Shown piece after piece: positions 1-18,081 of a stretch of 20,185 nt of DNA (its first letter is position 1; each line of letters starts with the position of its first letter). Made by a program: the position numbers and the translations under genes. Under the pieces are notes generated by a model. It was given only the letters and a program-made list of their open reading frames with translations, did not search any database and was not told where the DNA came from. Source of the DNA: a virus; the IMG/VR virus record IMGVR_UViG_3300046373_000048, positions 1 to 20,185 of that record, one strand, 5' to 3'.

Positions 1-2
1 AT

Positions 3-1490: not shown

Positions 1491-1499
1491 CGGGGATTT

Positions 1500-1951: not shown

Positions 1952-1966
1952 CACAAAGCATTTCAA

Positions 1967-1996
1967 GACATTAACTTTACGGTAGTAAATAATGTC
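1967..1996 (+). promoter_or_regulatory. Interrupted inverted repeat upstream of scaffold gene
   Basis: GACATTA and TAATGTC form perfect 7-base outer arms, and TTTAC/GTAAA form 5-base inner arms around a GGTA loop. A 2-base AC bulge lies on the left side. No T-run follows, so it is not a classic terminator. It could be an operator, an RNase III-type processing hairpin or a transcript stabiliser; the sequence does not decide. Confidence 0.45.
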
Positions 1997-2001
1997 AATG
2001 C

Positions 2002-2027
2002 GCAAGGCTCTTTTGAGAGCTTGCTTT
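2002..2027 (+). terminator. Weak hairpin, possible leaky terminator before scaffold gene
   Basis: GCAA-(G bulge)-GCTCT pairs with AGAGC-TTGC around a TTTG loop, followed by only three Ts. It follows the 1967-1996 dyad by five bases. The short T-run makes efficient termination unlikely; a partial terminator or mRNA-processing element is possible. Confidence 0.35.
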
Positions 2028-2030
2028 GCC

Positions 2031-2043
2031 CGCCGGGATGGCG
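2031..2043 (+). promoter_or_regulatory. GGGAT-loop hairpin in the scaffold leader
   Basis: CGCC-GGGAT-GGCG folds as a 4-bp hairpin 44 bases before the scaffold ATG. A hairpin with the identical GGGAT loop and a changed but still paired stem lies before the capsid gene (3063-3077). The shared loop with compensatory stem difference suggests an RNA element, though each is short. Confidence 0.35.
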
Positions 2044-2087
2044 CGCTTTCCCCCGCTCGAAATGAGCATTAAGACGGAGTTTCACAC

Positions 2088-3050: not shown

Positions 3051-3062
3051 CCATATATCGGC

Positions 3063-3077
3063 GCGTCGGGATGACGC
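3063..3077 (+). promoter_or_regulatory. GGGAT-loop hairpin in the capsid leader
   Basis: GCGTC-GGGAT-GACGC is a perfect 5-bp hairpin 24 bases before the capsid ATG and 13 bases after the scaffold stop. It shares its loop with the hairpin at 2031-2043, with a C-G to T-A pair swap in the stem. Confidence 0.4.
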
Positions 3078-3101
3078 CTCAATCCTTCAGGGAGCAACAA
3101 C

Positions 3102-4025: not shown

Positions 4026-4037
4026 TCGTTGAACCTG

Positions 4038-4058
4038 CCCCCGCTACGGCGGGGGTTT
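4038..4058 (+). terminator. Hairpin terminator after the capsid gene
   Basis: CCCCCGC and GCGGGGG form a perfect 7-bp GC-rich stem around a TACG loop, followed by TTTCGCT. The T-run is short, so partial read-through to the downstream genes is expected. It lies 13 bases after the capsid stop codon. Confidence 0.65.
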
Positions 4059-4077
4059 CGCTATTGGAGCTATGAAT

Positions 4078-4377
4078 ATGGATGATTCCGTCACCATCAT
4101 CAAAACCGGCGTGATTCTGACCGCTGGTGGTACTTCGGTCAATGCTGCGATCCCAACCGCGCAGTCTGGCGAAATCCCGCGCTACATTCGTCTTGCTGCA
4201 ACGACTTCCATTTACGTCAAGCTTGGTATCGCTGGCGTAGCCGCGGTAGCAGGCGACTTCATGGTGCAACCAGGCGATGCGACGATTGTCGTTGTCCCGC
4301 AAGGCATCACGACCATCGCGTGCTTACAGGCCGCAACGGGCGGCATCTTGCAAGTGTCGCCGCTGGAAGACTGCTGA
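4078..4377 (+). CDS. Small head-associated protein (possible decoration or head accessory)
   Basis: A 99-residue, beta-rich, Ala/Val/Ile/Thr-rich protein. An ATG also occurs at 4072, but GGAG at 4066-4069 is ideally spaced (8 bases) only from ATG4078, so that start is preferred. The product has no charged clusters and looks like a small beta-sandwich, as seen in capsid decoration or stabilising proteins. Its position directly after the major capsid gene supports a virion role. The family is not recognised; decoration is an inference. Its stop overlaps the next ATG by one base. Confidence 0.7.
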   Translation: MDDSVTIIKTGVILTAGGTSVNAAIPTAQSGEIPRYIRLAATTSIYVKLGIAGVAAVAGDFMVQPGDATIVVVPQGITTIACLQAATGGILQVSPLEDC

Positions 4378-4664
4378 TGATCGACATCGATACCCGGATC
4401 ACGACCGAAGGCCAGCTCACGCACATCGAGCGGGTACAGGACTGCACGCCGATTGCCGAGTATGCAAAGGCGCAGCATAACGCCGGATTTCATGGTTCGT
4501 CGGAGTTGAAGCACGCCGCGCGTATCCCGAACGTCATCATCGAGAAATACTGCAATGACCACAACATCGAGTTCTCGGAGTTCATGCGCAACCGCGAGCA
4601 TATGCGCCGGGTACTGAACGACCCGAGTCTCGCCGCGTTTCGCATCTGGCCCGGAAAGGTCTGA
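4377..4664 (+). CDS. Conserved-looking small phage protein
   Basis: The ATG at 4377 overlaps the TGA of the upstream gene (TGATG), giving a 95-residue product. An in-frame start at 4320 would lie deep inside the upstream gene and is rejected. The sequence is compact and charged, with HIERVQDCTPIAEYAKAQHN, an ARIPNVIIEKYCNDHNI segment and a C-terminus ending LAAFRIWPGKV. This kind of protein recurs in podophage head-tail modules in my memory, always without a known function. A head or connector role follows only from location. Confidence 0.72.
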   Translation: MIDIDTRITTEGQLTHIERVQDCTPIAEYAKAQHNAGFHGSSELKHAARIPNVIIEKYCNDHNIEFSEFMRNREHMRRVLNDPSLAAFRIWPGKV

Positions 4665-4666
4665 CC

Positions 4667-5212
4667 ATGCAGCGCTACATCAACAATTTCATCGACACCC
4701 GCGGCAACGCTGTTCCATACGCGACGATCAGCGTATTCAACGTCAGCGGGGCGCCAGCGACGATCTACAGCGACAACGGCACAACCCCATTGCCGAACCC
4801 ATTCACCACGGATGAGCGCGGGTCAGTGGCGTTTTATGCTGCTGACGGCCGCTACAACATCAAGTGCGAAGGCTCGGGCGTTGATCCGATGATTGTCACC
4901 GATGTCGCCCTGTCCGATACAGCATCAATGCCTTGCGTAACTGCTTGGGTGAAGTTCAATGGTCTGACTGGCGCAATCCTTGCAGGTTTCAACGTAGCCA
5001 GCATTACCGGCAACAGCGGCGCCTATACGGTCAATTTCACCAAGCCAATGAAAAGTGCTAACTACGCAGCAGTCGCCTCCGTGCAGCAATGGAATGGGGT
5101 AAGCGATACCGTCTTGACGGGTGTTCCAACAGTTAATGGTATCGCAGTTAACACCTATTCGGCCGGCACGCTTGCGGCTAATGGCGAAGTGTCGCTAATC
5201 GTTCTCGGCTAA
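4667..5212 (+). CDS. Fibre-like virion protein with C-terminal beta domain
   Basis: This 181-residue protein has two visible parts. Residues 1-75 carry a YINNFIDTRGNAVPYATISV start and an ATIYSDNGTTPLPNPFTTDE motif ending in FYAADGRYNI, a pattern typical of N-terminal attachment domains of phage fibre or base proteins. Residues about 90-181 carry TAWVKFNGLTGAILAGFNV then AYTVNFTKPM, a beta domain often found at tips of tail fibres (ARAWVNFNG-type). It is therefore likely a short fibre or receptor-binding accessory. It lies inside the head-connector block, between two small head genes and the adaptor, which is unusual for a fibre. Receptor and copy number cannot be told. Confidence 0.75.
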   Translation: MQRYINNFIDTRGNAVPYATISVFNVSGAPATIYSDNGTTPLPNPFTTDERGSVAFYAADGRYNIKCEGSGVDPMIVTDVALSDTASMPCVTAWVKFNGLTGAILAGFNVASITGNSGAYTVNFTKPMKSANYAAVASVQQWNGVSDTVLTGVPTVNGIAVNTYSAGTLAANGEVSLIVLG

Positions 5213-5220
5213 GGGGCGAT

Positions 5221-5853
5221 ATGCCAATCATCGCCTCTCCTGCAATCGATCCACTTGATTACGCCTGGCTGCAATCTCGCGTCGCCCGCTGGCTGCACCG
5301 TACCGATTTAACCGCGGACATCAAGGATTTCATCACCCTGGCGGAGGCGCGTATTAACGCTGACCTCGATGCACGGGCGCAGGATCAAATTGCTACGCTT
5401 GCGACCGTTGCGCACGCCTCGGTGTTGCCGATCCCGACCGATCTGCTCAACGTCCGCTCGTTCCTGTTACAGAATATCCGCGAGCTGGATTACATGGCGC
5501 CTGAGAATTTCAACGCCCGTTACGGCACGGCCGGCGAGGGTTCACCAATCGCATACACGATCATTGGCGGGAATTTCTACTTTGGCCCTACGCCTGACAG
5601 CAATTATTCGCTAACGCTGGCGTACCAAGGGAATATCCCGAGCCTCGCGGCCAATGGGACAAATTTCCTGATGAGCGCGCACCCGAACGTGTACTTGTTC
5701 GCAACGCTCGTTGAAAGCACCAAATTCATTGCTGACGATGGCCGCCTGCCGACCTGGGAAATCTCATATCAGCAGGCCATCAAGGCGGTCAATGACCTCG
5801 ATTGGGCTGTCTCCGGTCCTATGCGCGTGCGTTCTGACGTGCGCAACAAATAA
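5221..5853 (+). CDS. Head-tail adaptor protein, SU10-like
   Basis: A 210-residue protein with the look of phage adaptor (connector ring) proteins found beside DUF5309-type capsids. It has an N-terminal helical half containing LQSRVARWLHRTDLTADIKD and FITLAEARINADLDAR, then a beta-rich part with IPTDLLNVRSF, FYFGPTPDSNYSLTLAYQG and a closing helical PTWEISYQQAIKAVNDLD. Adaptors dock on the portal and join it to the nozzle. AAGGGG lies six bases before the ATG. Together with the nozzle-like gene at 7589 it forms the neck, although fibre genes lie between them. Family assignment is from remembered sequence style. Confidence 0.8.
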   Translation: MPIIASPAIDPLDYAWLQSRVARWLHRTDLTADIKDFITLAEARINADLDARAQDQIATLATVAHASVLPIPTDLLNVRSFLLQNIRELDYMAPENFNARYGTAGEGSPIAYTIIGGNFYFGPTPDSNYSLTLAYQGNIPSLAANGTNFLMSAHPNVYLFATLVESTKFIADDGRLPTWEISYQQAIKAVNDLDWAVSGPMRVRSDVRNK

Positions 5854-5862
5854 GGGGCAACA

Positions 5863-7113
5863 ATGCCACTCGAAACCGGTACTTTTATTTCTGATCTGGT
5901 CCCGACTAACCCGACGCCTGGCGATGCAAAATCCCAGGGCGATGACCATATCCGCTTTGTCAAATCTGCTGTAAAAGCAACCTTCCCGAACGTAAGCGGC
6001 GCGGTTAATGCCACGCATACCGAGTTGAATTATGTTGTAGGTCTGACTGCGCAAGCGGCGGCCAAGGACGGCTCCAACCTCACCACGCCAGCACCTGGCG
6101 ACAGCACCACCAAGATCGCGACAACTGCGTTTGTGATGAATGCAGCACTTACCTCGTCGCTGCCTGGGCAGGCTGGCAACGGTGGCAAGTTTCTCTATAC
6201 CGATGGAACCAATGCGGTATGGCGGCAGGCCTACCCCACTTTATCTGGTTCGACGGCTGGCAAGGTGCTGACCAATGACGGTGTCGGTACTAGCTGGGTA
6301 CAGGCGATCCCTCCGATCTCGTCTGGTGTAGTTGGGCAGTATCTGTCGAATGATGGCGCCAATACGGTTTGGGCAACGCCATCGGCTTACTTGCCACTAT
6401 CTGGCGGCACGATGACGGGTCAACTCCTACTGAAAGAAGGTACGGCGGCCGCACCTGGGCTTTCATTTGCAAATGATGGAGCGCCGGACACAGGCTTTTA
6501 CCATATCGCCGATGGTGTTTTTGGAATTAGCAACAACACGAATCAGACATGGCGGTTTGCCGCCGATGGAACGACCACCTATAGCTTCCTCAACGTCGAT
6601 ACGAGTAGCAAGGGCGCAAATTACACAACCGCATATTTCCAAAATACAAATGGCCTGAACATTACATTACAAGGTAACGGGCCGAATGGTTATAAGACAT
6701 TGCGTCTACAAGGCGGCACTCTGTCGTTCGTGAATAGCGCATACACAGCACAAATCTGGTCCCTGACCGATGGCGGCGATATGGCGATCACTGGCAATTT
6801 CTCAGCCAATGCCGTGAGCGCTGGAACGGTGACTCAAACCTCCGACGAGCGCAAAAAGAAATCGTGGCAGCGCATGCCGCACGACTTTATTGCGCGCTTG
6901 GCCGGCTTGCGTAAGTCCGGCATCTTCCGCTGGAAGAAGGGTGGCGCGGTCGGCGTTGGCGTTGGCGCGCAATCGCTTGAAGCGATCTTCCCCGAAGCCG
7001 TGCATACCGATGAGCAGGGCAACAAGTCCGTGAACTATGGCGCCGCAGCCATGGTTGCGTGCGTGGAGCTGGCGCGCGAGATTGAAGCGCTCAAAAAGCT
7101 GGTGCAAAAATGA
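5863..7113 (+). CDS. Tail fibre with C-terminal S74 intramolecular chaperone domain
   Basis: The 416-residue product has a fibre N-terminus (GDAKSQGDDHIRFVKSAVKA, residues 20-39). Three 25-residue-spaced repeats of G-x-x-L-x-x-D-G-x4-W follow at residues 108, 133 and 158, then the fibre motif LPLSGGTMTG (177-186) and a beta-rich shaft. The C-terminus is a peptidase S74 (ICD) domain starting at TSDERKKK, with Ser327 and the nearby lysines in the position of the family's Ser-Lys dyad. It ends in a helical VELAREIEALKKLVQ coil. S74 domains trimerise the fibre and then cut themselves off just before the serine, leaving a mature protein of about 326 residues. Its stop overlaps the next start by four bases. 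Receptor specificity is not visible. Confidence 0.87.
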   Translation: MPLETGTFISDLVPTNPTPGDAKSQGDDHIRFVKSAVKATFPNVSGAVNATHTELNYVVGLTAQAAAKDGSNLTTPAPGDSTTKIATTAFVMNAALTSSLPGQAGNGGKFLYTDGTNAVWRQAYPTLSGSTAGKVLTNDGVGTSWVQAIPPISSGVVGQYLSNDGANTVWATPSAYLPLSGGTMTGQLLLKEGTAAAPGLSFANDGAPDTGFYHIADGVFGISNNTNQTWRFAADGTTTYSFLNVDTSSKGANYTTAYFQNTNGLNITLQGNGPNGYKTLRLQGGTLSFVNSAYTAQIWSLTDGGDMAITGNFSANAVSAGTVTQTSDERKKKSWQRMPHDFIARLAGLRKSGIFRWKKGGAVGVGVGAQSLEAIFPEAVHTDEQGNKSVNYGAAAMVACVELAREIEALKKLVQK

Positions 7114-7592
7114 CGTTGCAGTCATCCGGCGCGATCTCGCTTGGCGATGTGCTGACAGAGCTGCGCATCGCCAACCCTGGCCGCTCGCTGCCGATCTCGC
7201 TGGGCGATACAGATGTGCGTAACCTGGCTGGCGTGCCATCTGGCGCAATTAGCCTGTCGGACCTGTATGGAAAGAGTTCGTACGTCGCCATGAGTGCGAC
7301 GCTGCCTGACAACAGCGACTCCAGCCTGTCCAACCCGCCAAGCGCAACCACGATCAACATTCCCATGGCGATGACCGTCACTGGGGGGCTAGCACCTTTT
7401 AGCTATACGTGGTCGAAGGTATCCGGCTCGGGTTCTGTCCAGGCTGTCAACTCTCCTAACACGAACGCGCAGATCACCAACCCCCGTTTTAGCACGCCAT
7501 CGACGCTATCTGAACTTGTGCAATGTTCGGTAACTGACGCAATGGGCAACACGATCACGAGGCAAGGCACTGCGACCTTGTACATCGAATGA
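7110..7592 (+). CDS. Small tail/fibre-associated protein with Ig-like domain
   Basis: A 160-residue protein overlapping the S74 fibre by ATGA, so the two are probably made together. The N-terminal 55 residues contain two SGAISLxD motifs (ending ISLSDLYGK), a pattern common in small phage tail proteins. Residues about 60-160 form a Ser/Thr/Pro-rich beta domain with FSYTWSKVSGSGSVQAVNSP and CSVTDAMGNTI, resembling a PKD/Ig-like fold. It may be a fibre-connecting or host-surface binding protein. It overlaps the following gene by four bases. Function is inferred from neighbours and domain style only. Confidence 0.75.
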   Translation: MTLQSSGAISLGDVLTELRIANPGRSLPISLGDTDVRNLAGVPSGAISLSDLYGKSSYVAMSATLPDNSDSSLSNPPSATTINIPMAMTVTGGLAPFSYTWSKVSGSGSVQAVNSPNTNAQITNPRFSTPSTLSELVQCSVTDAMGNTITRQGTATLYIE

Positions 7593-9163
7593 TAATTCCG
7601 TTTCCTAATGCCGGTTCGGCTGGCGTCGTCAAAGACCTCTCAGTGCATGAGTTGCCGCCGCAGGCATGGACGGATGCTTCTAACGTGCGCTTCCTAGACG
7701 GCTATGCCCGCAGCTTCCTTGGGCACGGCCAAGTGTACGGCACGCCAGCGGTGACGCCGCTGCATGTAGTCCCGGTCAACGTGGGCAGCACCCGTTATTG
7801 GCTCTATGCGGGCGCAAACAAAGTCTACGCGGTGGCGAACATCGCCGGCACCGCAACGCATACCAACCTGACTCGGCAGACTGCGGGCGCCGATGTTGAC
7901 TATGCAGGTACGCCGAATGCCTGGACCAGTGCAGTACTGTCGGGAATCCCGATCATCAATGCGGGTAACAATATCGACCCGCCGCAGCAGTGGGACTTGG
8001 ACGTGACGCACCGCATGACGACGCTCGCCAACTGGCCGGCCGATACGTGGTGCAAAGCAATCCGCGGCTACAAGAACTATCTGATTGCCCTGAACGTGAC
8101 CAAGGGCACGACGAACTTTGGCTATATGGTCAAGTGGTCGAGCCCAGCTGATCCTGGCGGCGTCCCGGCTACATGGAACCCTGCCGATCAGACGCAGGAC
8201 GCAGGCGAGTTTGATCTGGCGGAGGGCGGCGACCAAGTGATCGATGGTCTACAACTGCGCGACTCTTTTATGATCTACAAAGAGCAGTCAGTGTGGCGCA
8301 TGGATTTCACTGGCGGACCTTTCGTGTTCCGCTTCCAGAAGGTGCTGGGCGTCTCGGGCGCGATGAATCGCAACTGCATCGTTGAAGTTGATGGCTTCCA
8401 CTTCGTACTGACCGGGTCAGATGTAATCGTGCATGACGGTCAGAGTGCTTTGCCGGTGCTGGATAAGGTAGCGCGGCGCGCTCTGTTTCAGGATATGGAC
8501 ACTGCGTACAACGACCGATCGTTCGTATTCAAAAACCCGTTCCTGAACGAGGTTTTCGTCTGCTACACCTCGATTGGCGCCACTTCGCCCAACAAGGCGC
8601 TAGTGTGGAACTACAAGGACAAGACGGTCTCGTACCGCGATATCCCGAACCTGAACCATGCCAATTACGGCACCGTTGACAATACGCTGTCAGGCTCCTG
8701 GGCGGCAGACAACGACGCATGGGAATCTGACCTCACGGCATGGAACGGGCCTGACTTCAGCCCGAATACGACTCGCGTCTTGATGGCGTCGAATGCGTCC
8801 AAGCTGTACATGCTGGACGCCTCAAACAGTTTCGATGGCTTGCCGTGTAACTGGTATTTGGAGCGTCGCGGCCTGTCCTTTGGCAAGGATGATGGTTTCA
8901 AAACGATCACCGGAGTACGCCCACGCATTGCGGGTAACGCTGGTGGAACGGTGAATGTGCAGATTGGTGGCAATAACACCGATCCCTACGCCGATCCAGA
9001 GTATCCGGTGTCGATGACGTACACGATTGGTCAGACGATTGCCTGCGATGGCATTGTGAGCTACCGCTACCCCGCGATCCGCTTTTCTAGCGGCACGGCC
9101 CAGCAAGCGCGCCTTGACTCGTTCGACATTGAGATCAGCGATTCAACCAGGGGGCGCTGGTGA
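7589..9163 (+). CDS. Tail nozzle / DNA stabilisation-like protein
   Basis: This 524-residue protein begins FPNAGSAGVVKDLSVHELPP and continues with AWTDASNVRFLDG, a start typical of large podophage neck proteins. Repeated Trp/Tyr/Gly-rich blocks (SVWRMDFTGGPFVFRFQ, FVLTGSDVIVHDGQ, LVWNYKDKTVSYRDI) suggest a beta-propeller, as in P22 gp10-like or SU10-like nozzle proteins that close the portal channel and anchor fibres. A final beta domain of about 90 residues (VRPRIAGNAGGTVNVQIGG onward) looks like a separate module. It overlaps both neighbours by four bases. The assignment rests on length, pattern and context. Confidence 0.77.
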   Translation: MIIPFPNAGSAGVVKDLSVHELPPQAWTDASNVRFLDGYARSFLGHGQVYGTPAVTPLHVVPVNVGSTRYWLYAGANKVYAVANIAGTATHTNLTRQTAGADVDYAGTPNAWTSAVLSGIPIINAGNNIDPPQQWDLDVTHRMTTLANWPADTWCKAIRGYKNYLIALNVTKGTTNFGYMVKWSSPADPGGVPATWNPADQTQDAGEFDLAEGGDQVIDGLQLRDSFMIYKEQSVWRMDFTGGPFVFRFQKVLGVSGAMNRNCIVEVDGFHFVLTGSDVIVHDGQSALPVLDKVARRALFQDMDTAYNDRSFVFKNPFLNEVFVCYTSIGATSPNKALVWNYKDKTVSYRDIPNLNHANYGTVDNTLSGSWAADNDAWESDLTAWNGPDFSPNTTRVLMASNASKLYMLDASNSFDGLPCNWYLERRGLSFGKDDGFKTITGVRPRIAGNAGGTVNVQIGGNNTDPYADPEYPVSMTYTIGQTIACDGIVSYRYPAIRFSSGTAQQARLDSFDIEISDSTRGRW

Positions 9164-9426
9164 GGTCGGGCAGCTTATCGACGGTTCGCTATGCGCCGGA
9201 ACACGTCCCGGATGACCCGAAGGACTATGGCCGCTTTCTGCGCGGTGAGTTCGACCGGATTTCGGCAGCTATCGCGGCTTTGGCTGCGGGGCATATCGAC
9301 CGAGTTTACGCGCTACCGCTGAAACCGCGTGATGGCGACATTCGCTACCTAGATTCGACCATCGCGCCGGGTGGCGTGCTTGGGATGTACTACTACAAGG
9401 CGGGCGTATGGACATTGCTCGGATAG
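9160..9426 (+). CDS. Small phage protein, possibly virion-associated
   Basis: The start is a GTG overlapping the previous TGA (GTGA), supported by AGGGGG five bases upstream. The 88-residue product has an N-terminal segment APEHVPDDPKDYGRFLRGEFDRI, then a helical AAIAALAAG stretch, and a beta-rich C-terminus ending in YYYKAGVWTLLG. Similar short proteins follow the nozzle gene in many podophages, by memory, without known function. It overlaps the next gene by 19 bases. Confidence 0.72.
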   Translation: MRSGSLSTVRYAPEHVPDDPKDYGRFLRGEFDRISAAIAALAAGHIDRVYALPLKPRDGDIRYLDSTIAPGGVLGMYYYKAGVWTLLG

Positions 9427-9839
9427 AGCGCGAGCGCATCGAACAGCTTGAAGATGCAATTTTGAAGGCGCCGCAAGTGGATTTGCAAACGAAGCAGGCG
9501 CTCTCGGGCAAGGTCTATGCAAGGACGATTCTGATCCCGGCTGGAACAGTACTCACCGGCGCAACGCACAAGAAAGACCACATCAACATCGTTTGCGGCG
9601 ACATCACAGTTACGACCGATGAGGGGCCGAAGCGAATCATTGGCTACCACGTGATTGAGACAAAGGCGGGCAGCAAGCGAGCTGGTGTAGCGCACGCAGA
9701 CACGATGTGGACGACCGTCTGCCACACCGAATTGACTGATAGCGAAGCTATTGAGGATGAGCTAGTCGAAGAAAGCAGCAGATTACAGACACGGCAGGAT
9801 TTACTGCCAAACGCCACTCACAAGGCACTGGAGGAATAA
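9408..9839 (+). CDS. Cupin-like small phage protein
   Basis: A 143-residue protein starting inside the end of the preceding gene, with AAGGCGGG a few bases before the ATG. Residues about 38-105 (TRTILIPAGT-like start, then THKKDHINIVCGDITV, GYHVIETKAG and AHADTMWTTV) read as a beta-barrel of cupin type, with several His residues that could be surface or metal ligands. The acidic helical tail has EAIEDELVEESSRLQTR. A catalytic role is not shown. It sits between the nozzle and ejection genes, so a virion or assembly role is likely. It overlaps the next ATG by one base. Confidence 0.72.
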   Translation: MDIARIERERIEQLEDAILKAPQVDLQTKQALSGKVYARTILIPAGTVLTGATHKKDHINIVCGDITVTTDEGPKRIIGYHVIETKAGSKRAGVAHADTMWTTVCHTELTDSEAIEDELVEESSRLQTRQDLLPNATHKALEE

Positions 9840-10903
9840 TGGCATTCGGACTCTCAGCAGCGGCTATTGGCGGCATTGCCACGGCTGGCCTTGGCGCATA
9901 TACGGCTTACAAGGGAAGCAAAAACACGCCTTCGCAGGCTACGACGACCCAGCAGCAGCAGGCAGACCCGCGCATTTCCGGGATGCTGTTCGGCCAAAAC
10001 GGAAACAATGGCCTGCTGAACCAGTTTCAGGGATATTTGGACAAGCCACAAAGCGCAGGCATGCAGCAATACGGGCAAGCTGCGCAGAACTACCTGGGTA
10101 ATAGCGGTGCCTATGACCTGGCAAATCAGCACAACGCCGCGATGGGCTTGATGAACGGCGGTCACTCCGCGCCAGCGCAGACCAACATGGACCTGTCGGG
10201 CGCGTATGACCGCACCATCAACGGCGACCCCGCTGCAAATCCCTACCTGACGGGAGCTATCGCCAAAGGCATCAACCAAAGCACAACCGCTTTCCAGAAC
10301 CAGCAGACTGACGCAACGCGAAACCTCACTGAGAACGTACTGCCATCGCTACGCGGTGGGGCAATCGCAGCTGGCCAGTATGGAGGCACACGGCAAGGCC
10401 TGGCCGAAGGAATGGCTCTCAATTCATTCAACACTCAGCAGGGTAGGGCGCTGTCGCAGTTCGGCCAGAACAATACCGATGCTGCCGTGTCGGCACAAGC
10501 GGGCGCTTATGACAATGGGCAATCCCGCGCACTCGCTGCAATGAACTCGGTAGGCGGTCAACAGCAGGCCAGCAATGCCCTGCAAAGCTCGAACACGCAG
10601 GCAGGCTTGCAAGCGTCGAACGGTCTGCTGAACAACATCTACACAGCCGGCGCGAATCAGGACTCCTACGGTATCAACCAGGCCGGCAAGGTCTCTGGCT
10701 TGCTGTCGCCGTACCTTGGCGTGAATGGTACGCAAACCACCAGTCAGCCGCTGTACCAGAACCAAGGCGCCAACATTCTCGGCGGTGCAACTGCCGGCCT
10801 TGGCATCTACAACGGGCTGAAAAATTCAGGCCTATTTGGCGACAAGCCTCCGACTATCGGCTCATCTGCTGACTACGCAAACAACAACTGGCTTACTTCG
10901 TAA
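9839..10903 (+). CDS. Ejection / internal virion protein, first of three
   Basis: A 354-residue protein with a Gly/Ala-rich hydrophobic N-terminus (LSAAAIGGIATAGLGAYTAY) and a second such segment near residue 310 (ANILGGATAGLGIYNG). Between them lies a long Gln/Asn/Ala/Gly-rich, largely helical region (many QQ, NNT and SNT runs) with hardly any Cys. This matches the first, smaller ejection protein of podophages (roles like T7 gp14 or P22 gp7), which leaves the capsid with the DNA and enters the host envelope. It starts one base before the previous stop ends. The two genes downstream complete the usual trio. Sequence-level homology is not claimed. Confidence 0.7.
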   Translation: MAFGLSAAAIGGIATAGLGAYTAYKGSKNTPSQATTTQQQQADPRISGMLFGQNGNNGLLNQFQGYLDKPQSAGMQQYGQAAQNYLGNSGAYDLANQHNAAMGLMNGGHSAPAQTNMDLSGAYDRTINGDPAANPYLTGAIAKGINQSTTAFQNQQTDATRNLTENVLPSLRGGAIAAGQYGGTRQGLAEGMALNSFNTQQGRALSQFGQNNTDAAVSAQAGAYDNGQSRALAAMNSVGGQQQASNALQSSNTQAGLQASNGLLNNIYTAGANQDSYGINQAGKVSGLLSPYLGVNGTQTTSQPLYQNQGANILGGATAGLGIYNGLKNSGLFGDKPPTIGSSADYANNNWLTS

Positions 10904-10912
10904 GGAAACACC

Positions 10913-12583
10913 ATGCCCGGTTTACTCGATGGCTTTATGGATGATCCATCCACGATGGGATTGCTCGGCATGGCCGGCGGCTTGCTGTCCGCTGGCGGGC
11001 CTTCGCTTATGCCTCATACGCTAGGACAGGGCTTGGCGGCAGGTTTTGACGGCATGAACAAGGCCTATAACAGCACAATGCAAACGCAGCTTGATCGCCA
11101 AAAGGAAGCGCTTCAGATGAACATGCTGAAGCAGCAGGTTGAGCAGGCCACGCGCAAGAACGGGCTCATTAACGACTTCTTGCAACAAAATATGGGCGGT
11201 GGCTCGCAGGCTACCCCGGCGATGTCCAGCACTCCTATGGGGGCGGCTGGAATGCCTGCCAACAGCATGCCAATGCAGCCAGGAAATGCACCAATCGGCA
11301 CTAATAGCAGCGCAGGCTTCGGGGGCATCCCTTCGGCAGCAATCGCAGCCGATCTGGCCTTCAATGGCGGCACAAAGATGGGCGAATGGATCAACGACCG
11401 CTCTAAGCCGACAGACTTCACCAAGCTCCTACAGCAGGCCGGTATTGATCCAAACTCGACGCTTGGCCGGCAGATGATGCAGCAGCATATCGCCAAGCAA
11501 AATAATATCCCGCTGGTCTCGGGCCGTGCTGGCGCACCCATGTATAACCCTGACGGCACGATTGCCGCAATGGCTCCAATCATCCCTAAAAACGCGGTTC
11601 CAACTATCGAAAACGGGCGCGTCACAGGTGTGTCGCCGCTGGCCGGCGCTGCCAATGTTGAACAGATCAATGCCTATGCGGATCAGGCGGGTAAAAATCA
11701 GGCCGAGCCAATAGCAGGCTTTAGCCCTGACGGAAAATCTGTCTATACGAATAAGTTTGCAGCAGCAAATGGCGGTGCGAGTGGTGGTACTTGGAGCGGC
11801 GGCTCCCTGGACAGTGCAACGCTTGCTAAGCTTAACCAGGCCGCTGCTGGCGGGAATAAGGACGCACTTGCTGCACTGACGGCATACGCTGGTAGAGGGC
11901 AGGCGGTGACCCCGAGTTTGCAGCCCGGCGTGGATAAGTCCATCGGCGGAAACATCGAAACGATGAACAACGATTTCGCCGATCTGTACGCTCAGAACAA
12001 GGCGGCACCTACCAGCCTTGCCGTGCTGGACAACATTAAGAAACTAGCGCCAAAAGCAATCATGGGGTCGCAAGCTGAGCGCTTGGCGTTCCTGAACGGC
12101 TTGCTAACCCTTGGCGGGATGAGCGGCACCGCAACGGATTTGAAAACCGCAACGGACCTGTTTGACAAGAACAGCAACATGCTTGTGGCGAACATGCGGA
12201 AGAGTGCAGGCGGTGCCGGAACAGATGCGTTCCAAGCACTCGCACAAGCGTCGAACCCTAATAATCACATGACGCCAGCAGCGGCTATTGAGGCGGCGGA
12301 CACGCTGATTGGTCAGATCAAAATGGCGCAGAAGCAGTATAAAACGATGCTGCCGTTCAAGATGAACAACGATGCAGTTGGCTACTACAACGCTCAGCAA
12401 CAGTTCGTCAACGGCGCCGATCCACGCAATTACCAGCCCGACGCCGGCCATGCCCCATCGGCACCAGCGGCGCCAAACAAATTCGACATGCTGCCGCCCG
12501 CAGCTCAATACGAAGGCAAGCGCCTGCAGGCCGACAACGGCACGATTTACCGCGCAGTCGGCGGTAAGTGGGTGAAGGAGTAA
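10913..12583 (+). CDS. Ejection / internal virion protein, second of three
   Basis: A 556-residue protein with AAGGA six bases before its ATG. It begins with a Gly/Leu/Met-rich amphipathic part (MGLLGMAGGLLSAGG) and a Gln-rich helix (residues about 50-80). A Pro/Met/Gly-rich low-complexity stretch (about 95-140) follows, then a long Ala/Asn/Lys/Gln helical body. It ends in a small basic beta segment, TIYRAVGGKWVKE. The composition and position fit an internal virion protein. No lysozyme or transglycosylase catalytic motif was recognised in it. The downstream Shine-Dalgarno sequence lies in its final codons, so the next gene is probably coupled. Confidence 0.7.
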   Translation: MPGLLDGFMDDPSTMGLLGMAGGLLSAGGPSLMPHTLGQGLAAGFDGMNKAYNSTMQTQLDRQKEALQMNMLKQQVEQATRKNGLINDFLQQNMGGGSQATPAMSSTPMGAAGMPANSMPMQPGNAPIGTNSSAGFGGIPSAAIAADLAFNGGTKMGEWINDRSKPTDFTKLLQQAGIDPNSTLGRQMMQQHIAKQNNIPLVSGRAGAPMYNPDGTIAAMAPIIPKNAVPTIENGRVTGVSPLAGAANVEQINAYADQAGKNQAEPIAGFSPDGKSVYTNKFAAANGGASGGTWSGGSLDSATLAKLNQAAAGGNKDALAALTAYAGRGQAVTPSLQPGVDKSIGGNIETMNNDFADLYAQNKAAPTSLAVLDNIKKLAPKAIMGSQAERLAFLNGLLTLGGMSGTATDLKTATDLFDKNSNMLVANMRKSAGGAGTDAFQALAQASNPNNHMTPAAAIEAADTLIGQIKMAQKQYKTMLPFKMNNDAVGYYNAQQQFVNGADPRNYQPDAGHAPSAPAAPNKFDMLPPAAQYEGKRLQADNGTIYRAVGGKWVKE

Positions 12584-12585
12584 CT

Positions 12586-14331
12586 ATGGGGTACACGCTA
12601 CTCGATGATTCTGGGGCGCCGGTCAAAGGCACATATACGCTACTTCCTGACGATGCGCCCAAGGCAAAAGACGCTGCACCTGGGATACTGTCTACCATTG
12701 CCGGCTTCGCTGGTAAGAATGGCCTCAATACTGCTTTGTCTGGCCCGAATTTGATAGGAAAAGGACTGTCGGCAATTGGCGATGCTCTTAGCCCGGCGCC
12801 ATCCTTGTCAGATTTGGTATCTGGGAAGAAACCGACCAACTTTATCGGCCAGGCTGGGCAAGCAATTCAGGACGCCGTAGCACGCGGTAAGGCCTCCATG
12901 TCTAACACGATGGCGCCATACCAAGATGCTCATCCAACGGCAGCGGTAGTAGGGGATACTGCTGGCGATGTCATTAAGACTCTTCCGGCAGGAATGGGTT
13001 TGGGAGCAGTTGCAAGAGCAGTTATGCCAGCTATAGCGACATCCCGTATTGCGCCATTGCTGACGGCAATCGAAACAGGCGGCATGAAGACGGGCGTAGC
13101 CCCAGCAGCTACCTTGGCAGGTAAAGCAGTTGACATGGGCACTCGGATGCTTGGGGGCGGCATCACTGGCGCAGCATCAACGGCAATGGTAGACCCTTCC
13201 AACGTTGGAACGGGCGGGGGAATTGGGGCCATCGCCCCAGTAGCATTCGGAGCTGCTGGGAAAATCGGGAATGCAATGGGGCGCGTTATTTCTGGCCCAG
13301 ATGTATCGCCTGCTGTGCAGGCCGGCGTGCAAGCGGCAACAAAAGCAGGATACGTGGTGCCTCCAACTCAGGCCAGTCCGACTCTTGCTAACCGCCTGAT
13401 GGAGGGGATGGCAGGGAAAATTTCTACAGCCCAGAATGCAAGTGCGAAAAACCAAGCGGTCACCAATGGCTTAGCAGCGACCGCTCTAGGCCTTCCCGCC
13501 GAGACGCAATTATCGCCTGGCGTCTTAAATCAAATTCGTCAGAACGCTGGCCGTGCGTATGATGCAGTCGCATCTACTGGGACCATTACGCCGGGGCCGG
13601 CCTATGAACAGGCGCTCGATTCAATCACTGCACAGGCGCGCCAAGCAGCGGCTGGTTTCCCCAATGCTAAGCCTAGCGCGATCCTGTCTGAAATCGACGC
13701 GCTTAAAAGCCCTCAGTTTGACGCGAGCAGTGCGGTTTCTAAGATTCAGCAACTGCGCGACCAAGCCAGTTCAGCTTACGCATCTGGCGATAAAAGTTTA
13801 GGTGCAGCATTAAAGGCAGGCGCTGGCGTCTTGGAAGACACGATTGACCAGCACTTGCAGCAGATCGGTGCACCGCCGGATTTGCTAGATGGGTTTCGCA
13901 ATGCTCGTCAATTGATTGCAAAAACCTACTCGGTTGAAAAGGCACTTAACCCGACTTCTGGAACCGTTGACGCACAAAAGCTTGCAGCACAGCTGAATCG
14001 AGGGAAACCGCTAAGCGGTGATTTGCTCACGGCTGCACAGTTTGCTCAGCAATTTCCGAAAGCAGCTCAGCCGGTTGAGAAAATGGGAAGTTTGCCACAA
14101 CTAAGCCCCCTTGACTGGGGCGCATCAGCTCTAGCGACAGCAGCATCAGGGAACCTGCTGCCTATGGCGGGAGTGATCCTACGCCCCGGCGCCCGTTCAC
14201 TTGCCCTATCGCCACTCATCCAAAATCGCTTAGCAAAGACAGCTACACCGGGGCTGTTAAGTCAACTTATGGGTGATCCTGAACTTTCGGGGCTGGGCTA
14301 TCTCGCCGCCCCGAGACTGGGAGACCATTGA
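12586..14331 (+). CDS. Ejection / internal virion protein, third of three
   Basis: The start is placed at ATG12586 because AAGGAG (12575-12580) is spaced correctly from it; a GTG at 12568 in the same frame lies inside the previous gene and is less likely. The 581-residue product has a short N-terminal domain with a repeated YTLLDD/YTLLPDD motif. Several Gly/Ala hydrophobic stretches follow (about residues 115-240, for example GGGIGAIAPVAFGAAGKIG), then a long helical region with Ala/Gln and a hydrophobic C-terminal part. Such a membrane-prone, Ala-rich protein fits the largest ejection protein. No catalytic motif is visible. It ends the structural operon; 159 bases without a plus-strand gene follow. 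Confidence 0.7.
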   Translation: MGYTLLDDSGAPVKGTYTLLPDDAPKAKDAAPGILSTIAGFAGKNGLNTALSGPNLIGKGLSAIGDALSPAPSLSDLVSGKKPTNFIGQAGQAIQDAVARGKASMSNTMAPYQDAHPTAAVVGDTAGDVIKTLPAGMGLGAVARAVMPAIATSRIAPLLTAIETGGMKTGVAPAATLAGKAVDMGTRMLGGGITGAASTAMVDPSNVGTGGGIGAIAPVAFGAAGKIGNAMGRVISGPDVSPAVQAGVQAATKAGYVVPPTQASPTLANRLMEGMAGKISTAQNASAKNQAVTNGLAATALGLPAETQLSPGVLNQIRQNAGRAYDAVASTGTITPGPAYEQALDSITAQARQAAAGFPNAKPSAILSEIDALKSPQFDASSAVSKIQQLRDQASSAYASGDKSLGAALKAGAGVLEDTIDQHLQQIGAPPDLLDGFRNARQLIAKTYSVEKALNPTSGTVDAQKLAAQLNRGKPLSGDLLTAAQFAQQFPKAAQPVEKMGSLPQLSPLDWGASALATAASGNLLPMAGVILRPGARSLALSPLIQNRLAKTATPGLLSQLMGDPELSGLGYLAAPRLGDH

Positions 14332-14410
14332 TTCCCCGAATGAATTGCCATACAAAAACGGCAACGCATAGAAGAAGAAACTTAACTATCAAATAAGTTA
14401 TGTAGCTCAT
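14267..14410 (-). CDS. Candidate small membrane protein, convergent with the ejection gene
   Basis: On the minus strand an ATG at 14410 opens a 47-residue frame starting MSYITYLIVKFLLLCVAV, with one clear membrane segment followed by a basic tail. The same frame can extend up to 14503, but that part is less protein-like. Its first half fills the 159-base plus-strand gap and its end overlaps the ejection gene's 3' end. A TATGAT lies just upstream, without a good -35. Shine-Dalgarno support is weak. It may be a small moron, but A/G-rich plus-strand sequence would give a hydrophobic antisense frame by chance. Confidence 0.28.
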   Translation of the reverse strand: MSYITYLIVKFLLLCVAVFVWQFIRGINGLPVSGRRDSPAPKVQDHP

Positions 14411-14490
14411 CACCGCATCATACCCCAAGAAGCCCAGAAGGCCTCTGAAATATAGCAAGCCGACGACGAGCGGCCAACCTGAAAGAAGAC

Positions 14491-14766
14491 ATGCAGACGC
14501 CAAGCGAAAACAAAATCCGGTTCGATAAAACGGTAAATCTAGGGCATATCCTGACTATGTGTATGTTCCTCGTCGCGATGATGACCGGCTGGAACATGAT
14601 GGACAAGCGCCTGCTTGTGCTGGAAGAGGCCAGGACATCCCAGCGCGACCGAGACGCGCTTCAAGATTCAACCGCTAAGGACAATCAGCAAGCAATCAAG
14701 GAGGCGCTTACCGACCTGCGCCGCAGCGTGGAAAAGGTTGCTGACAAGGTAGGCGCGCAAAAATGA
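14491..14766 (+). CDS. Small membrane protein with coiled coil (lysis-associated, holin/antiholin candidate)
   Basis: A 91-residue protein with one transmembrane segment (about residues 17-37, LGHILTMCMFLVAMMTGW) after a short charged N-terminus, followed by a charged coiled coil (42-88). It opens the lysis cassette and overlaps the next gene by four bases (ATGA). Proteins of this form occur next to holins in betaproteobacterial phages and may be a holin partner or antiholin. That role is inferred from position. Confidence 0.7.
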   Translation: MQTPSENKIRFDKTVNLGHILTMCMFLVAMMTGWNMMDKRLLVLEEARTSQRDRDALQDSTAKDNQQAIKEALTDLRRSVEKVADKVGAQK

Positions 14767-14999
14767 AAATCCAATTCATCGACAACGCGCGCAAGTTCCT
14801 GCGCCATGCCTGGAGCGTGCGCCTTTCGCTCTTGGCGGCAGTGATCACCTTCGGGAATGCTGCACTGCCGACGCTGGCACAGATCAAGCCGACAACCACT
14901 CTCGCGGCCCTGTCTGGCATTTTCGCCGTGGCGGCGGTATTTGCACAGTTCATTCCGCAGAAAAAACTATCGGGAGGCGAGGATGCCAGCAACCAATAA
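14763..14999 (+). CDS. Putative phage holin
   Basis: A 78-residue protein with a charged start (KIQFIDNARKFLRHAW) and two hydrophobic segments, about residues 20-38 (SLLAAVITFGNAALPTL) and 45-64 (TLAALSGIFAVAAVFAQF), then a charged tail with KK and GGED. This is class II holin topology. It lies directly upstream of the endolysin and overlaps its start by 17 bases. A holin permeabilises the inner membrane at the timed end of infection. The family resembles short two-helix phage holins in betaproteobacteria. Confidence 0.8.
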   Translation: MKIQFIDNARKFLRHAWSVRLSLLAAVITFGNAALPTLAQIKPTTTLAALSGIFAVAAVFAQFIPQKKLSGGEDASNQ

Positions 15000-15441
15000 G
15001 CAGCGCGCCGCCTGGTGCGCAATTGCCGTCACATGCGTGAGCGGCTTCGAAGGCCTACGCCAGGCAGCGTACAGCGATCCTGTGGGCATCCCGACGATCT
15101 GCTTTGGCGAGACCAAGGGTGTGCAGCTCGGCCAGCGCGCCACCATGGACGAATGCAAAGGGATGCTGGCCGACTCGCTGGAGATCGCTAACCGCGGCGT
15201 CGATGCCTGCATCCGTGCGCCGCTTCCAGACTATCGCCGCGCCGCTCTCGTTTCGTTCACCTATAACGTTGGGCAAGCCAATCTATGCGGCTCAACCCTG
15301 GCGCGCAAGCTGAATGCTGGCGACACTGTAGGCGGCTGCAACGAGCTGTCACGCTGGACGCGCGCTAGGGGCATTGAGTTGCCCGGATTGGTAAAGCGCC
15401 GTGCCGCCGAGCGTGAAATGTGCCTGCGGGGTGTGCTGTGA
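14983..15441 (+). CDS. Endolysin, GH24 lysozyme-like muramidase
   Basis: The start is set at ATG14983, with GGGAGG five bases upstream; longer in-frame starts lie in the holin gene. The 152-residue enzyme shows the T4-lysozyme triad spacing Glu23-x8-Asp32-x5-Thr38 (FEGLRQAAYSDPVGIPT), the conserved ALVSFTYNVGQANLCGSTL block and a PGLVKRRAAEREMC end, as in lambdoid R/Lyz-type endolysins. It cleaves the N-acetylmuramic acid to N-acetylglucosamine bond of peptidoglycan. The N-terminus (residues 9-22, AAWCAIAVTCVSGF) is weakly hydrophobic and could be a short signal-anchor-release segment, but it is close to the catalytic Glu. The protein has eight Cys residues. The stop overlaps the Rz start by GTGA. 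Confidence 0.9.
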   Translation: MPATNKQRAAWCAIAVTCVSGFEGLRQAAYSDPVGIPTICFGETKGVQLGQRATMDECKGMLADSLEIANRGVDACIRAPLPDYRRAALVSFTYNVGQANLCGSTLARKLNAGDTVGGCNELSRWTRARGIELPGLVKRRAAEREMCLRGVL

Positions 15442-15986
15442 ACCCGCTTACCCTAATTGGAATCAAATGCGCGGTCATCCTGGCCTTGTTCGCCGGCCTG
15501 TATGGATACGGCCACCATAACGGCGCGAAGGCTACCCGCGCCCTGTGGGACGCCGATAAAGTCAAGGTAGCCGCACAGTCCGAAGCCGCTATCCTCGCCG
15601 CCCAAGAGCGCTACGTGCGCATCCAGAAATTCAACGAAGTCACCGCCAGAAAGGCATCCGAAGCCCATGAAAAAGCTATTTCCGATCTTCAAGCGCAGTA
15701 CGATGCTGCTCGCGCTGCCATTCGCGCTGCTGGCGGGCTGCGCATCCCCAGGGCCATCTGTGCCAGTCAAGACCATGGAACATCCACTACCGCAGGCGGC
15801 GGCCGATCTGATGATCCCGCCGCCGCCACCGTCGCACTTCCTGCAGAAACTGAAAGACGCCTTCTCGAACTGAGCCAGGAGGCTGATGCCCTGGCCGAAC
15901 GCTTGCGCGCGCTACAGATGTGGATCAAGGGAGCGGGACTTTACGGCCCGGGCGATGAACTTCCCGCAGTCGCTCCTGCCAAATAG
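15438..15986 (+). CDS. Rz: Rz-like inner-membrane spanin
   Basis: A GTG at 15438 overlapping the endolysin stop is chosen over ATG15420, which lies inside the endolysin. The 182-residue protein has an N-terminal transmembrane anchor (about residues 4-26, LTLIGIKCAVILALFAGLYG), then a long Ala/Glu/Lys coiled-coil periplasmic region, a Gly/Thr/Ser-rich stretch, and a second helical part (ERRLLELSQEADALAERLRA). i-Spanins pair with o-spanins to disrupt the outer membrane at lysis. A frame for the o-spanin (15667-15873) is fully nested. The cassette order holin, endolysin, Rz/Rz1 is standard for Gram-negative hosts. Confidence 0.85.
   Translation: MNPLTLIGIKCAVILALFAGLYGYGHHNGAKATRALWDADKVKVAAQSEAAILAAQERYVRIQKFNEVTARKASEAHEKAISDLQAQYDAARAAIRAAGGLRIPRAICASQDHGTSTTAGGGRSDDPAAATVALPAETERRLLELSQEADALAERLRALQMWIKGAGLYGPGDELPAVAPAK
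15667..15873 (+). CDS. Rz1: Rz1-like outer-membrane lipoprotein spanin, nested in Rz
   Basis: A 68-residue frame lying wholly inside Rz in another frame. It has a basic N-terminus (MKKLFPIFKR), a hydrophobic signal segment and a lipobox LLAGC with Cys25 as the lipidated residue. The mature 44 residues are proline-rich (IPPPPPSHF). Nested o-spanins of this kind are well known in lambda. AAAGG lies about 10 bases before the ATG. It would sit in the outer membrane and bind the Rz periplasmic domain across the wall. Confidence 0.85.
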   Translation: MKKLFPIFKRSTMLLALPFALLAGCASPGPSVPVKTMEHPLPQAAADLMIPPPPPSHFLQKLKDAFSN

Positions 15987-15988
15987 CC

Positions 15989-16156
15989 ATGGACTTCCAC
16001 ATACTCAGCACGCACCAGCGAAACAGCGACGACGACACGCCGTTGCAGATGGTGAGCGCTGAGCAAGTGGCGTACTGGCAACGGATCGAGGCGGAGTATT
16101 TGCGACTGCTGGAGCAGTTGGCGGAGGCAGTTGAGCCGGCGCCCGCGTCTCCGTAA
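15989..16156 (+). CDS. Small protein after the lysis cassette
   Basis: A 55-residue frame starting two bases after the Rz stop and ending in TAA. It begins MDFHILSTHQRNSDDDTPLQ; the rest is helical and acidic (AYWQRIEAEYLRLLEQLAE) with a Pro/Ala end. No strong Shine-Dalgarno sequence is present, so coupling to Rz is likely. The protein-like helix pattern and correct spacing support it as a gene. No family is recognised. Confidence 0.55.
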   Translation: MDFHILSTHQRNSDDDTPLQMVSAEQVAYWQRIEAEYLRLLEQLAEAVEPAPASP

Positions 16157-16172
16157 ATGCTACCATGCCGCC

Positions 16173-16391
16173 ATGGACGACGAACACCTGCACCAAGAGG
16201 GCTACTTTGAGGCATTCGCCGCGGTCATCAACGCGCTTGATCCGAAGGCTGCTGACTTAGATTTCCAGTTTGCAAACCTGAGCAATGCGGCGCGAATCTC
16301 AACACTGCTCAGCGACGACGAGAAGAGGCGCTTGCGGGCGATGCTGCATATTGTGCGGACGCAGGCTGGTCCAAATGGAGGAACGGGATAG
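16173..16391 (+). CDS. Small hypothetical phage protein
   Basis: A 72-residue frame from ATG16173, starting MDDEHLHQEGYFEAFAAVIN, acidic at first and then basic and helical (DDEKRRLRAMLHIVRTQ). A TTG at 16131 with GGAGG three bases upstream would add 14 Arg-rich residues that overlap the previous gene; the ATG start is preferred because those residues look like a shadow. It is the last plus-strand gene before the attachment region. Function is unknown. Confidence 0.58.
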   Translation: MDDEHLHQEGYFEAFAAVINALDPKAADLDFQFANLSNAARISTLLSDDEKRRLRAMLHIVRTQAGPNGGTG

Positions 16392-16417
16392 ACCCCATAA
16401 ACTGTACTATTGAGAAT

Positions 16418-16436
16418 GCGTAAACTTAGCGTAAAC
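16418..16436 (+). repeat. Tandem GCGTAAAC repeat, one helical turn apart
   Basis: GCGTAAAC occurs at 16418-16425 and 16429-16436, starts 11 bases apart, so both copies face the same side of the helix. It lies in the left arm of the attachment region and is a candidate site for an excisionase-like or bending protein. Confidence 0.5.
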
Positions 16437-16544
16437 AAGCAATTACGTTCTCGACATGAACAATAATATAGTACATGATTGAGCGAATAATCCATTGAAT
16501 ACATTGGGAAATGCCTAGTTCGCTGGACAGATTCATAGCCTATC

Positions 16545-16572
16545 GGGGGTTCGAATCCCCCTCTCTCCGCCA
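16545..16572 (+). other. Attachment core: 3' end of a serine tRNA gene
   Basis: GGGGG-TTCGAAT-CCCCC is a perfect T-arm (16545-16561), followed by the acceptor 3' strand TCTCTCC (16562-16568), discriminator G and encoded CCA (16570-16572). No anticodon or D arm precedes it, so it is a fragment, not a complete tRNA. The acceptor would pair with GGAGAGA, as in betaproteobacterial tRNA-Ser genes. Carrying this segment lets a phage restore the tRNA on integration. The left limit of identity with the host gene is unknown. Confidence 0.8.
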
Positions 16573-16582
16573 TATATAGCTG

Positions 16583-16615
16583 TAGGGCCGCTTCGATAGC
16601 GGCCCTATTTGTTTG
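16583..16615 (+). terminator. Strong rho-independent terminator right of the attachment core
   Basis: TAGGGCCGCT and AGCGGCCCTA form a perfect 10-bp stem around TCGAT, followed by TTTGTTTG on the plus strand only. It lies 10 bases after the tRNA CCA. On the phage genome it would stop rightward late transcripts before the opposing integrase operon. In a lysogen it would lie just behind the restored tRNA gene. Confidence 0.8.
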
Positions 16616-16641
16616 TGCTATTCAGAGCCATTGTGCTATTC
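16613..16641 (+). repeat. Direct repeats TTGTGCTATTC (right arm sites)
   Basis: Two identical 11-base copies, 16613-16623 and 16631-16641, starts 18 bases apart, between the terminator and the integrase stop codon. Position and relation to left-arm TGTACTATT copies suggest integrase arm-type binding sites. Confidence 0.6.
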
Positions 16642-16648
16642 GATTTGC

Positions 16649-17704
16649 CTAGCGCAGGGGTTTTACGACCTCTGGCTTGCGCCGATAGACGCGCTCTGTC
16701 AATTTACCGTCAGCATGCGCAAGCAGTTGTCGAGCATGCTCCAGGGTCGCCGCATCGCTTGCGCACTTGGCGCGAAGATCGTGTTCGGTGAAATGCTCGG
16801 TGACAGCAGTTTCGGCCATGACGCGCTTAATAAAGCCTCCCCACATCGACTCCCATCCGCCAGCGCGCCCAGTTTCCTCGTTGAAATAGCCGCTCCCCAT
16901 CCTGTTGCAGAAAAGGAAAGGGGAGAGCTTCATCGGCCGGGCCTGTTTCGCGAGAGCTACGGCCGCTCGGAGTTCGTCAGACCATTCGATGATCATGCTC
17001 TTGCCGGTGCTGTTTTCGGTCTTCCCTGGTGTCACATGAATGCCAGTCTCTTCCCGAAGGGCGGACATTGTAAGGCGCAGAATATCGCCGCGGCGCATCC
17101 CGGTCAGCAGCTTCAAGCGTATGTAGGCCTGTACGGCCAAGACACTCCCCGCCTTCCTCTTTGACTCTAGTTTCAGGCACTCAACGATTTCCCAGTCCTC
17201 AACATACCGGGTCCGCGACTTCTCGCCCACCAGGCGCACCTCACCCTTGAACGGATGCCGGTCGATATAGCCCCACTCTACCGCTTTGGTCATTGCATGA
17301 GAAAGCAATTCTGTCTCGCGTCGGGCGCCCGTTTTAGCGTCGCGACCGTCGATATACTGGTAGATCAGTTTCGGCTTGATGTCCTCCAGCGACATCGCGC
17401 CGAATGCCATGCGCACCTTTTTGAGCGCCGACGCATTTTGATTTCGCGTGGTGACTGCCTTTTTCGGGATCACTTCAAGCGCGTACCGGTCGAGCAGTTG
17501 GGCGATGTTGCGGACTTCGGCCTTGTTGTTCAGCCGGCGCGCCCACTCCGCGTATGCCTCCGGAAGAGTGGCGCCTAGCCGGAACGTCTTTTTCCCATCC
17601 CACGCTGGCTCCTGGCCGACAGGTACTTGGTAGTAGTAGCCGCCGTGAGTGTGGCGCCACCGCTTAGGCAGCCCGAGATTTTCCGTGTTGCGTGCGCGGG
17701 GCAT
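16649..17704 (-). CDS. int: Tyrosine site-specific integrase
   Basis: The start is set at ATG17704, with GGAG eight bases upstream; a longer frame from 17776 lies inside the upstream gene. The 351-residue protein has an N-terminal arm/core-binding half and a C-terminal catalytic domain. The visible active-site set is Arg204 (TGMRRGDILRL), Lys228 (GKTENSTGK), His308 and Arg311 (EHDLRAK), His330 (LLAHADG) and nucleophile Tyr340 (ERVYRRK). It recombines attP with the host tRNA-Ser attB. Its stop is 76 bases from the core, the classic int-att arrangement, and it is last in the minus-strand operon, so its expression follows the early transcript unless it has its own promoter. Confidence 0.94.
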   Translation of the reverse strand: MPRARNTENLGLPKRWRHTHGGYYYQVPVGQEPAWDGKKTFRLGATLPEAYAEWARRLNNKAEVRNIAQLLDRYALEVIPKKAVTTRNQNASALKKVRMAFGAMSLEDIKPKLIYQYIDGRDAKTGARRETELLSHAMTKAVEWGYIDRHPFKGEVRLVGEKSRTRYVEDWEIVECLKLESKRKAGSVLAVQAYIRLKLLTGMRRGDILRLTMSALREETGIHVTPGKTENSTGKSMIIEWSDELRAAVALAKQARPMKLSPFLFCNRMGSGYFNEETGRAGGWESMWGGFIKRVMAETAVTEHFTEHDLRAKCASDAATLEHARQLLAHADGKLTERVYRRKPEVVKPLR

Positions 17705-17915
17705 TGATACCACTCCAGTTAATTTCCGGATCTTTCTTCCGCTTCGTCGTTGGGCCACCCATGACTTGCTCCACATGGGAGCGAAGCACAGCGATGCTGC
17801 CGTCCGGCCGCGTTCGATGCTCGATGCCCATGGCGTTCAAGACGCGAGCCTGGGCAGCATGCTGTACCCGCATCGTCAGTGCGTGGATTTCCTCGCTATC
17901 GAGTATAAGACTCAT
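17664..17915 (-). CDS. DUF4224-domain protein
   Basis: An 83-residue protein upstream of, and overlapping by 41 bases, the integrase. ATG17915 is preferred over ATG17933 because AAAGGAAG lies about seven bases before it. It begins SLILDSEEIHALT and has an ARVLNAMGIEHRTRPDGSIAVL core, matching DUF4224: a short helical domain followed by a 'GI..rpDGs.vVlr' beta pair. DUF4224 proteins commonly sit beside phage integrases and look like small DNA-binding proteins. A directionality (excisionase) or regulatory role is plausible but unproven. The Lys-rich C-terminus (TTKRKKD) may aid nucleic-acid binding. Confidence 0.78.
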   Translation of the reverse strand: MSLILDSEEIHALTMRVQHAAQARVLNAMGIEHRTRPDGSIAVLRSHVEQVMGGPTTKRKKDPEINWSGINAPRTQHGKSRAA

Positions 17916-18081
17916 CCTGCTTCCTTTCCTCATCCACCAGCGGCCAGCTGCATTGACTCAGCAAGTGCGCCCCGCCGCACCTGGTACACGCCGGCCGGAA
18001 TATCGCATCCCAGCCATCGCGGTAAGCCTTCGTAGGCGCCTTCGTGGCGATCTTGTCGCCTGTGATGTCGTTGTGGCTCAT
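17896..18081 (-). CDS. Small CCHC-type putative zinc-binding protein
   Basis: A 61-residue protein with GGAGG five bases before its ATG. It contains a compact Cys/His cluster, C32-x2-C35-x3-H39-x4-C44 (CTRCGGAHLLSQC), one residue shorter than a retroviral zinc knuckle, then WPLVDEERK. The N-terminal half is basic and aromatic (KAYRDGWDAIFRP). Small prophage proteins of this look are common and unnamed. It overlaps the DUF4224 start by 20 bases and its own start overlaps the upstream stop by ATGA. Metal binding is inferred. Confidence 0.75.
   Translation of the reverse strand: MSHNDITGDKIATKAPTKAYRDGWDAIFRPACTRCGGAHLLSQCSWPLVDEERKQDESYTR

Follow-up and report, generated by a model that had tools for sequence, protein, structure and literature searches.

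A copy of a tRNA-Ser 3' end lies between the late genes and the integrase gene of the phage DNA described here, which raises the question of whether it marks one end of an integrated prophage or the attachment site (attP) of a phage that is not inserted. The phage bears a duplicate of the terminal part of a bacterial serine-tRNA gene, so that insertion at this place leaves the tRNA intact. The whole stretch analysed, referred to below as the window, is an IMG/VR virus contig of 20,185 bases and corresponds to the complete record. Its segment from 16392 to 16648 very probably represents the attP of a single temperate phage of podovirus type, present as uninserted DNA in packaged, replicating, or circular form. 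The kind of site is ordinary and well known.

Gene layout around the site

The plus-strand genes from 1 to 16391 form a late set encoding capsid, tail, and internal-type proteins, an endolysin, and Rz. The last of them, to the left of the core, is the gene at 16131 to 16391, which follows the endolysin and Rz-type lysis genes. From 16649 onward, the minus strand carries the gene of a tyrosine integrase together with that of a DUF4224 protein and small early genes. The interval between the late and integrase sides, 16392 to 16648, is noncoding apart from chance open reading frames. The features relevant to the site are as follows.

3102 to 4025, plus strand: major capsid protein of the left-hand late module (PHROG 1328, E value of 1e-104)
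14920 to 15441, plus strand: endolysin, one of the lysis genes nearest the left arm (PHROG 7, E value of 6e-52)
15420 to 15986, plus strand: Rz-type lysis protein (Pfam PF03245, E value of 1.6e-5, barely over the cut-off)
16403 to 16410, plus strand: putative arm-type site P1, TGTACTAT (motif; similar position and strand in relatives)
16433 to 16445, plus strand: putative IHF-like site, AAACAAGCAATTA, with one mismatch to WATCAANNNNTTR (consensus match)
16468 to 16475, minus strand: putative arm-type site P2, inverted, ATAGTACA (motif)
16532 to 16572, plus strand: attP core, 41 bases identical to the tRNA-Ser(GGA) 3' end (alignment to intact tRNA-Ser(GGA))
16582 to 16608, plus strand: putative terminator, a terminator-like hairpin with a T-rich tail directly after the core (sequence; similar hairpins in L006, L124, and others)
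16613 to 16623, plus strand: putative arm-type site P'1, TTGTGCTATTC (motif)
16631 to 16641, plus strand: putative arm-type site P'2, TTGTGCTATTC (motif)
16649 to 17776, minus strand: tyrosine-recombinase integrase, reading towards the core with its stop at 16649 (PHROG 1, E value of 1e-36; Pfam PF00589)
17664 to 17933, minus strand: DUF4224 protein, candidate excisionase (41% identity over the match to a region of phage PBR31 annotated as a putative excisionase)

An open reading frame of 123 amino acids at 16202 to 16573 on the minus strand, starting with MAERGGFEPP, was rejected as a gene; it is antisense to the tRNA core and represents a typical false gene.

The preliminary description read the site as an attP and hence not as a simple prophage end, and this reading holds: phage genes occupy both flanks of the core, and in integrated relatives the two arms stand at opposite ends. 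No host genes are recognised on either side of the core in the window, although a single prophage end (attL or attR) would place host DNA on one side; with neither host DNA nor a complete tRNA found, such an end is ruled out. Since phage DNA flanks the core of this IMG/VR virus contig left and right, the window is assigned to an uninserted phage genome rather than to a prophage end. Among the three states originally offered, excised, circular, or packaged DNA is the best supported; a stable episome is possible and needs extra evidence, and tandem prophages are unneeded. The window contains no terminal repeat. Terminase and portal genes are missing from it because it is only a 20-kb fragment, about half, of what is probably a genome of ∼40 kb.

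The tRNA-Ser core and its arms

The 41-base core spans part of the variable arm, the T arm, the 3' strand of the acceptor stem, and CCA; in the alignment to intact tRNA-Ser(GGA), matching is only sporadic upstream of 16532. The earlier placement of a tRNA-Ser 3' end between the late genes and the integrase is thus retained, whereas its length of 28 bases is replaced by 41 bases on alignment. As expected for an attP, the ARAGORN search of the window yielded no complete tRNA. Base for base, the core equals the tRNA-Ser(GGA) 3' end of several Burkholderiales genomes. The search for hosts with an intact tRNA-Ser of the same end, which the preliminary description had proposed, was successful with the 41-mer: the 300 genomes sampled from one bacterial order include 5 that contain it exactly, and in all five at least one copy ends an intact tRNA-Ser(GGA). 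The host indicated is a bacterium with this tRNA-Ser(GGA) end, probably a member of the Burkholderiales near Herbaspirillum.

Related short repeats flank the core on both sides, as had been noticed. Four copies of the motif TGTRCTAT are present in the window: three on the plus strand, at 16403, 16614, and 16632, and an inverted one at 16468 on the minus strand. All copies lie within 16403 to 16639 and none elsewhere in the window, in the order P1+, P2−, core, P'1+, P'2+, which is like that of arm-type integrase sites. First-order Markov simulations (300 runs) gave 0.6 hits on average and never as many as three within 240 bases. The sequence thus points to repeated arm-type sites on both arms. 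The left arm has a G+C content of 37%, compared to 57% for the window, and only 0.2% of 140-base stretches are equally low. An IHF-like site is found between P1 and P2 in many relatives, with the exact IHF consensus at the equivalent place in L016, L014, L022, G056, and the Pandoraea elements. The left arm also contains a direct repeat of GCGTAAAC at 16418 to 16425 and 16429 to 16436, with 11 bases from one copy to the next, between P1 and P2; these copies are possibly excisionase sites.

Relatives show an equal layout with element-specific motifs, read from the arm sequences: TGGGTCAT in PBR31, TGTGCCAT in the Paraburkholderia prophages, and TATACCAT in L014. Across 13 elements, the right-arm sites fit the left arm of the same element better than those of the others (mean scores of 15.3 and 12.7, respectively), and none of 20,000 permutations reaches 15.3. 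Elements of one motif class are interchangeable in this comparison, which is significant over the set and weak for the window alone, where the own pairing scores 14 and other arms of the TGTRCTAT class score equally or higher. A Pandoraea element considered as a mismatched-arm control was dropped, as its score of 14 equals that of the window's own pairing; by eye, the Pandoraea arms appear to belong to differing motif classes, with TTTACTAT on the left and TCCTATT on the right.

Integrated, empty, and free forms of related sites

Besides the core, the arms, and the integrase of the window, relatives show sites of this kind both in the integrated state and empty. In Herbaspirillum sp. SJZ107, attL (L168, at 130 kb) is made up of an intact tRNA-Ser, the right arm, and the integrase, in this order, and attR (L180, at 189 kb), 59 kb away, consists of the left arm followed by a short core duplicate and host-type DNA with no tRNA. 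Core pairs in Paraburkholderia genomes are spaced 42 to 67 kb apart. In Cupriavidus basilensis KF708, the right arm of the phage contig L016 is found at attL (97% identity) and its left arm at attR (93%). The arms are thus divided between attL and attR in these integrated relatives of the window's phage, with the tRNA intact at attL. Four genomes (L203, L204, L205, and L207) have the tRNA, and no such integrase is present in their retrieved flanks of up to 1.5 kb per side. The free form is represented by the phage records PBR31 and L016, in which, as in the window, one core is flanked by both arms; the L016 contig (also G001) comprises 39,112 bases with a 111-base direct terminal repeat and an interior attP between the endolysin on one side and the integrase on the other. 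With these loci, attP, attB, attL, and attR of a single integrase family are all available as a clean natural collection that is useful for predicting hosts and for cutting prophages at their true att sites.

On the single contig L209, which has related late genes and the nearest internal protein (58%), the late and lysis genes are followed by a convergent integrase-like gene and then by early genes; the gap between the late genes and the integrase there contains no recognisable tRNA end. The right-hand early genes of the window have only weak or short matches in capsid-related contigs, so the co-occurrence of the late and early halves there is suggestive only. The contigs found did not include a closed genome of the window's phage, and a near-identical phage was likewise not found among GenBank phages, where the only match at the DNA level is the tRNA core of PBR31. 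The capsid protein was also searched for in the family of Herbaspirillum sp. SJZ107 (195 genomes), which yielded no lysogen of the window's phage, only relatives with 42 to 49% identity. In L151, L153, L157, and L190, phages with capsid proteins 68 to 69% identical, the tRNA end belongs to another serine tRNA (CGA); it is interior in three of these contigs, and the fourth has the complete tRNA near its end.

If two identical or closely related prophages were inserted in tandem in a single tRNA-Ser gene, the middle junction of this array, represented by the window, would have the same sequence as an attP; like-armed neighbours of this kind are indistinguishable from attP by sequence alone. Neighbouring insertions at this tRNA do happen, as indicated by Pandoraea horticolens (L137), where 10 kb separate two such cores. 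The array is nevertheless very unlikely: it needs an extra assumption, nothing here supports it, and the data are accounted for by an interior attP, as is common in phage records with this integrase. The cores of L137 are located at 3723 to 3750 and 13668 to 13695, one of them with an intact tRNA-Ser. Still less probable are two unrelated elements in tandem, one supplying the left arm and the other the integrase arm: heterologous neighbours seem to be present in Pandoraea, L159 and L172, but both arms of the window are of the TGTRCTAT class in a single-element layout, and its gene order (late, lysis, convergent integrase, early) is also that of L209. A chimeric metagenome assembly of two phages at a common tRNA segment deserves hardly any weight, since the arm classes agree across the join and the gene order is as in L016 and L209, even though a misjoin would be plausible at an exact 41-base repeat that is also present in hosts and in other elements. 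On the preferred reading as an attP, the contig is settled as uninserted phage DNA.

Proposed integration, orientation, and comparison with known systems

From its sequence, the attP suggests the following course. The N-terminal domain of the integrase would bind the four TGTRCTAT sites and its catalytic part the core, with IHF presumably bending the left arm. Upon recombination with the tRNA-Ser(GGA) gene of a host, two sites would arise: an attL with an intact tRNA, the phage terminator hairpin, and the integrase, and an attR with the late-gene end, the left arm, the 41-base duplicate, and host DNA. The hairpin would then lie downstream of the restored tRNA, replacing the host tRNA's own terminator. 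Excision, probably with the help of the DUF4224 protein, would remake attP.

The core is convergent to the integrase in the window, SJZ107, L016, and others and runs in the integrase direction in PBR31, L014, L015, L021, L023, L043, and L135. On a tree of 42 integrases, incompletely sampled and made after dropping a number of entries (those that duplicated another entry or whose translated match contained in-frame stops), both orientations are interleaved, and well-supported branches force at least three changes. It appears moderately likely that in the tRNA-Ser(GGA) integrase clade the complete attP, arms and core, has been flipped relative to the integrase at least three times; lysogens would thus differ in having the integrase beside the intact tRNA, as for the window's phage, or at the far end. 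The whole attP is found in either orientation to the integrase gene among relatives, as noted for 16532 to 16648 of the window and for L002, L014, L021 to L023, L043, L130, and L135. Once the window's phage is integrated, its integrase and the tRNA would be opposite-convergent, one of two common types, with 438 cases among 1,273 tRNA-integrase pairs surveyed (PMC2951348).

Xanthomonas phage PBR31 (MT119766; PMC10975493) is likewise a temperate podophage, with an integrase 53% identical to that of the window and internal-protein homologues 37 to 47% identical over the matches. Its complete genome also has the tRNA-Ser 3' end in the interior, between integrase and late genes, but with the core reversed relative to the integrase gene; the word attP is absent from the text of the PBR31 paper (PMC10975493). 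The nearest integrase in the tree, 75% identical and on the sister branch, is that of the Herbaspirillum sp. SJZ107 prophage (NZ_VFNH01000001), which shares the 41-base core, the arm-site class, and the convergent orientation. In contrast to the window, this prophage is integrated, with 59 kb between its sites, and the genome has no match to the window capsid protein. The IMG/VR contig 3300031825_000044 (L016) has an interior attP oriented as in the window, an integrase with 68% identity, and arm sites of the TGTCCTAT type; among the late genes, the endolysin (37%) is the sole match at the threshold used. The site follows the textbook scheme of tyrosine-integrase attP sites (PMC4111918). Like the lambda-type attP served by a tyrosine integrase and IHF (PMC4111918), it covers about 240 bases, with a core flanked left and right by arm-type sites and an IHF-like site in the P arm, whereas the number and spacing of the sites differ and the core is the 41-base tRNA end.
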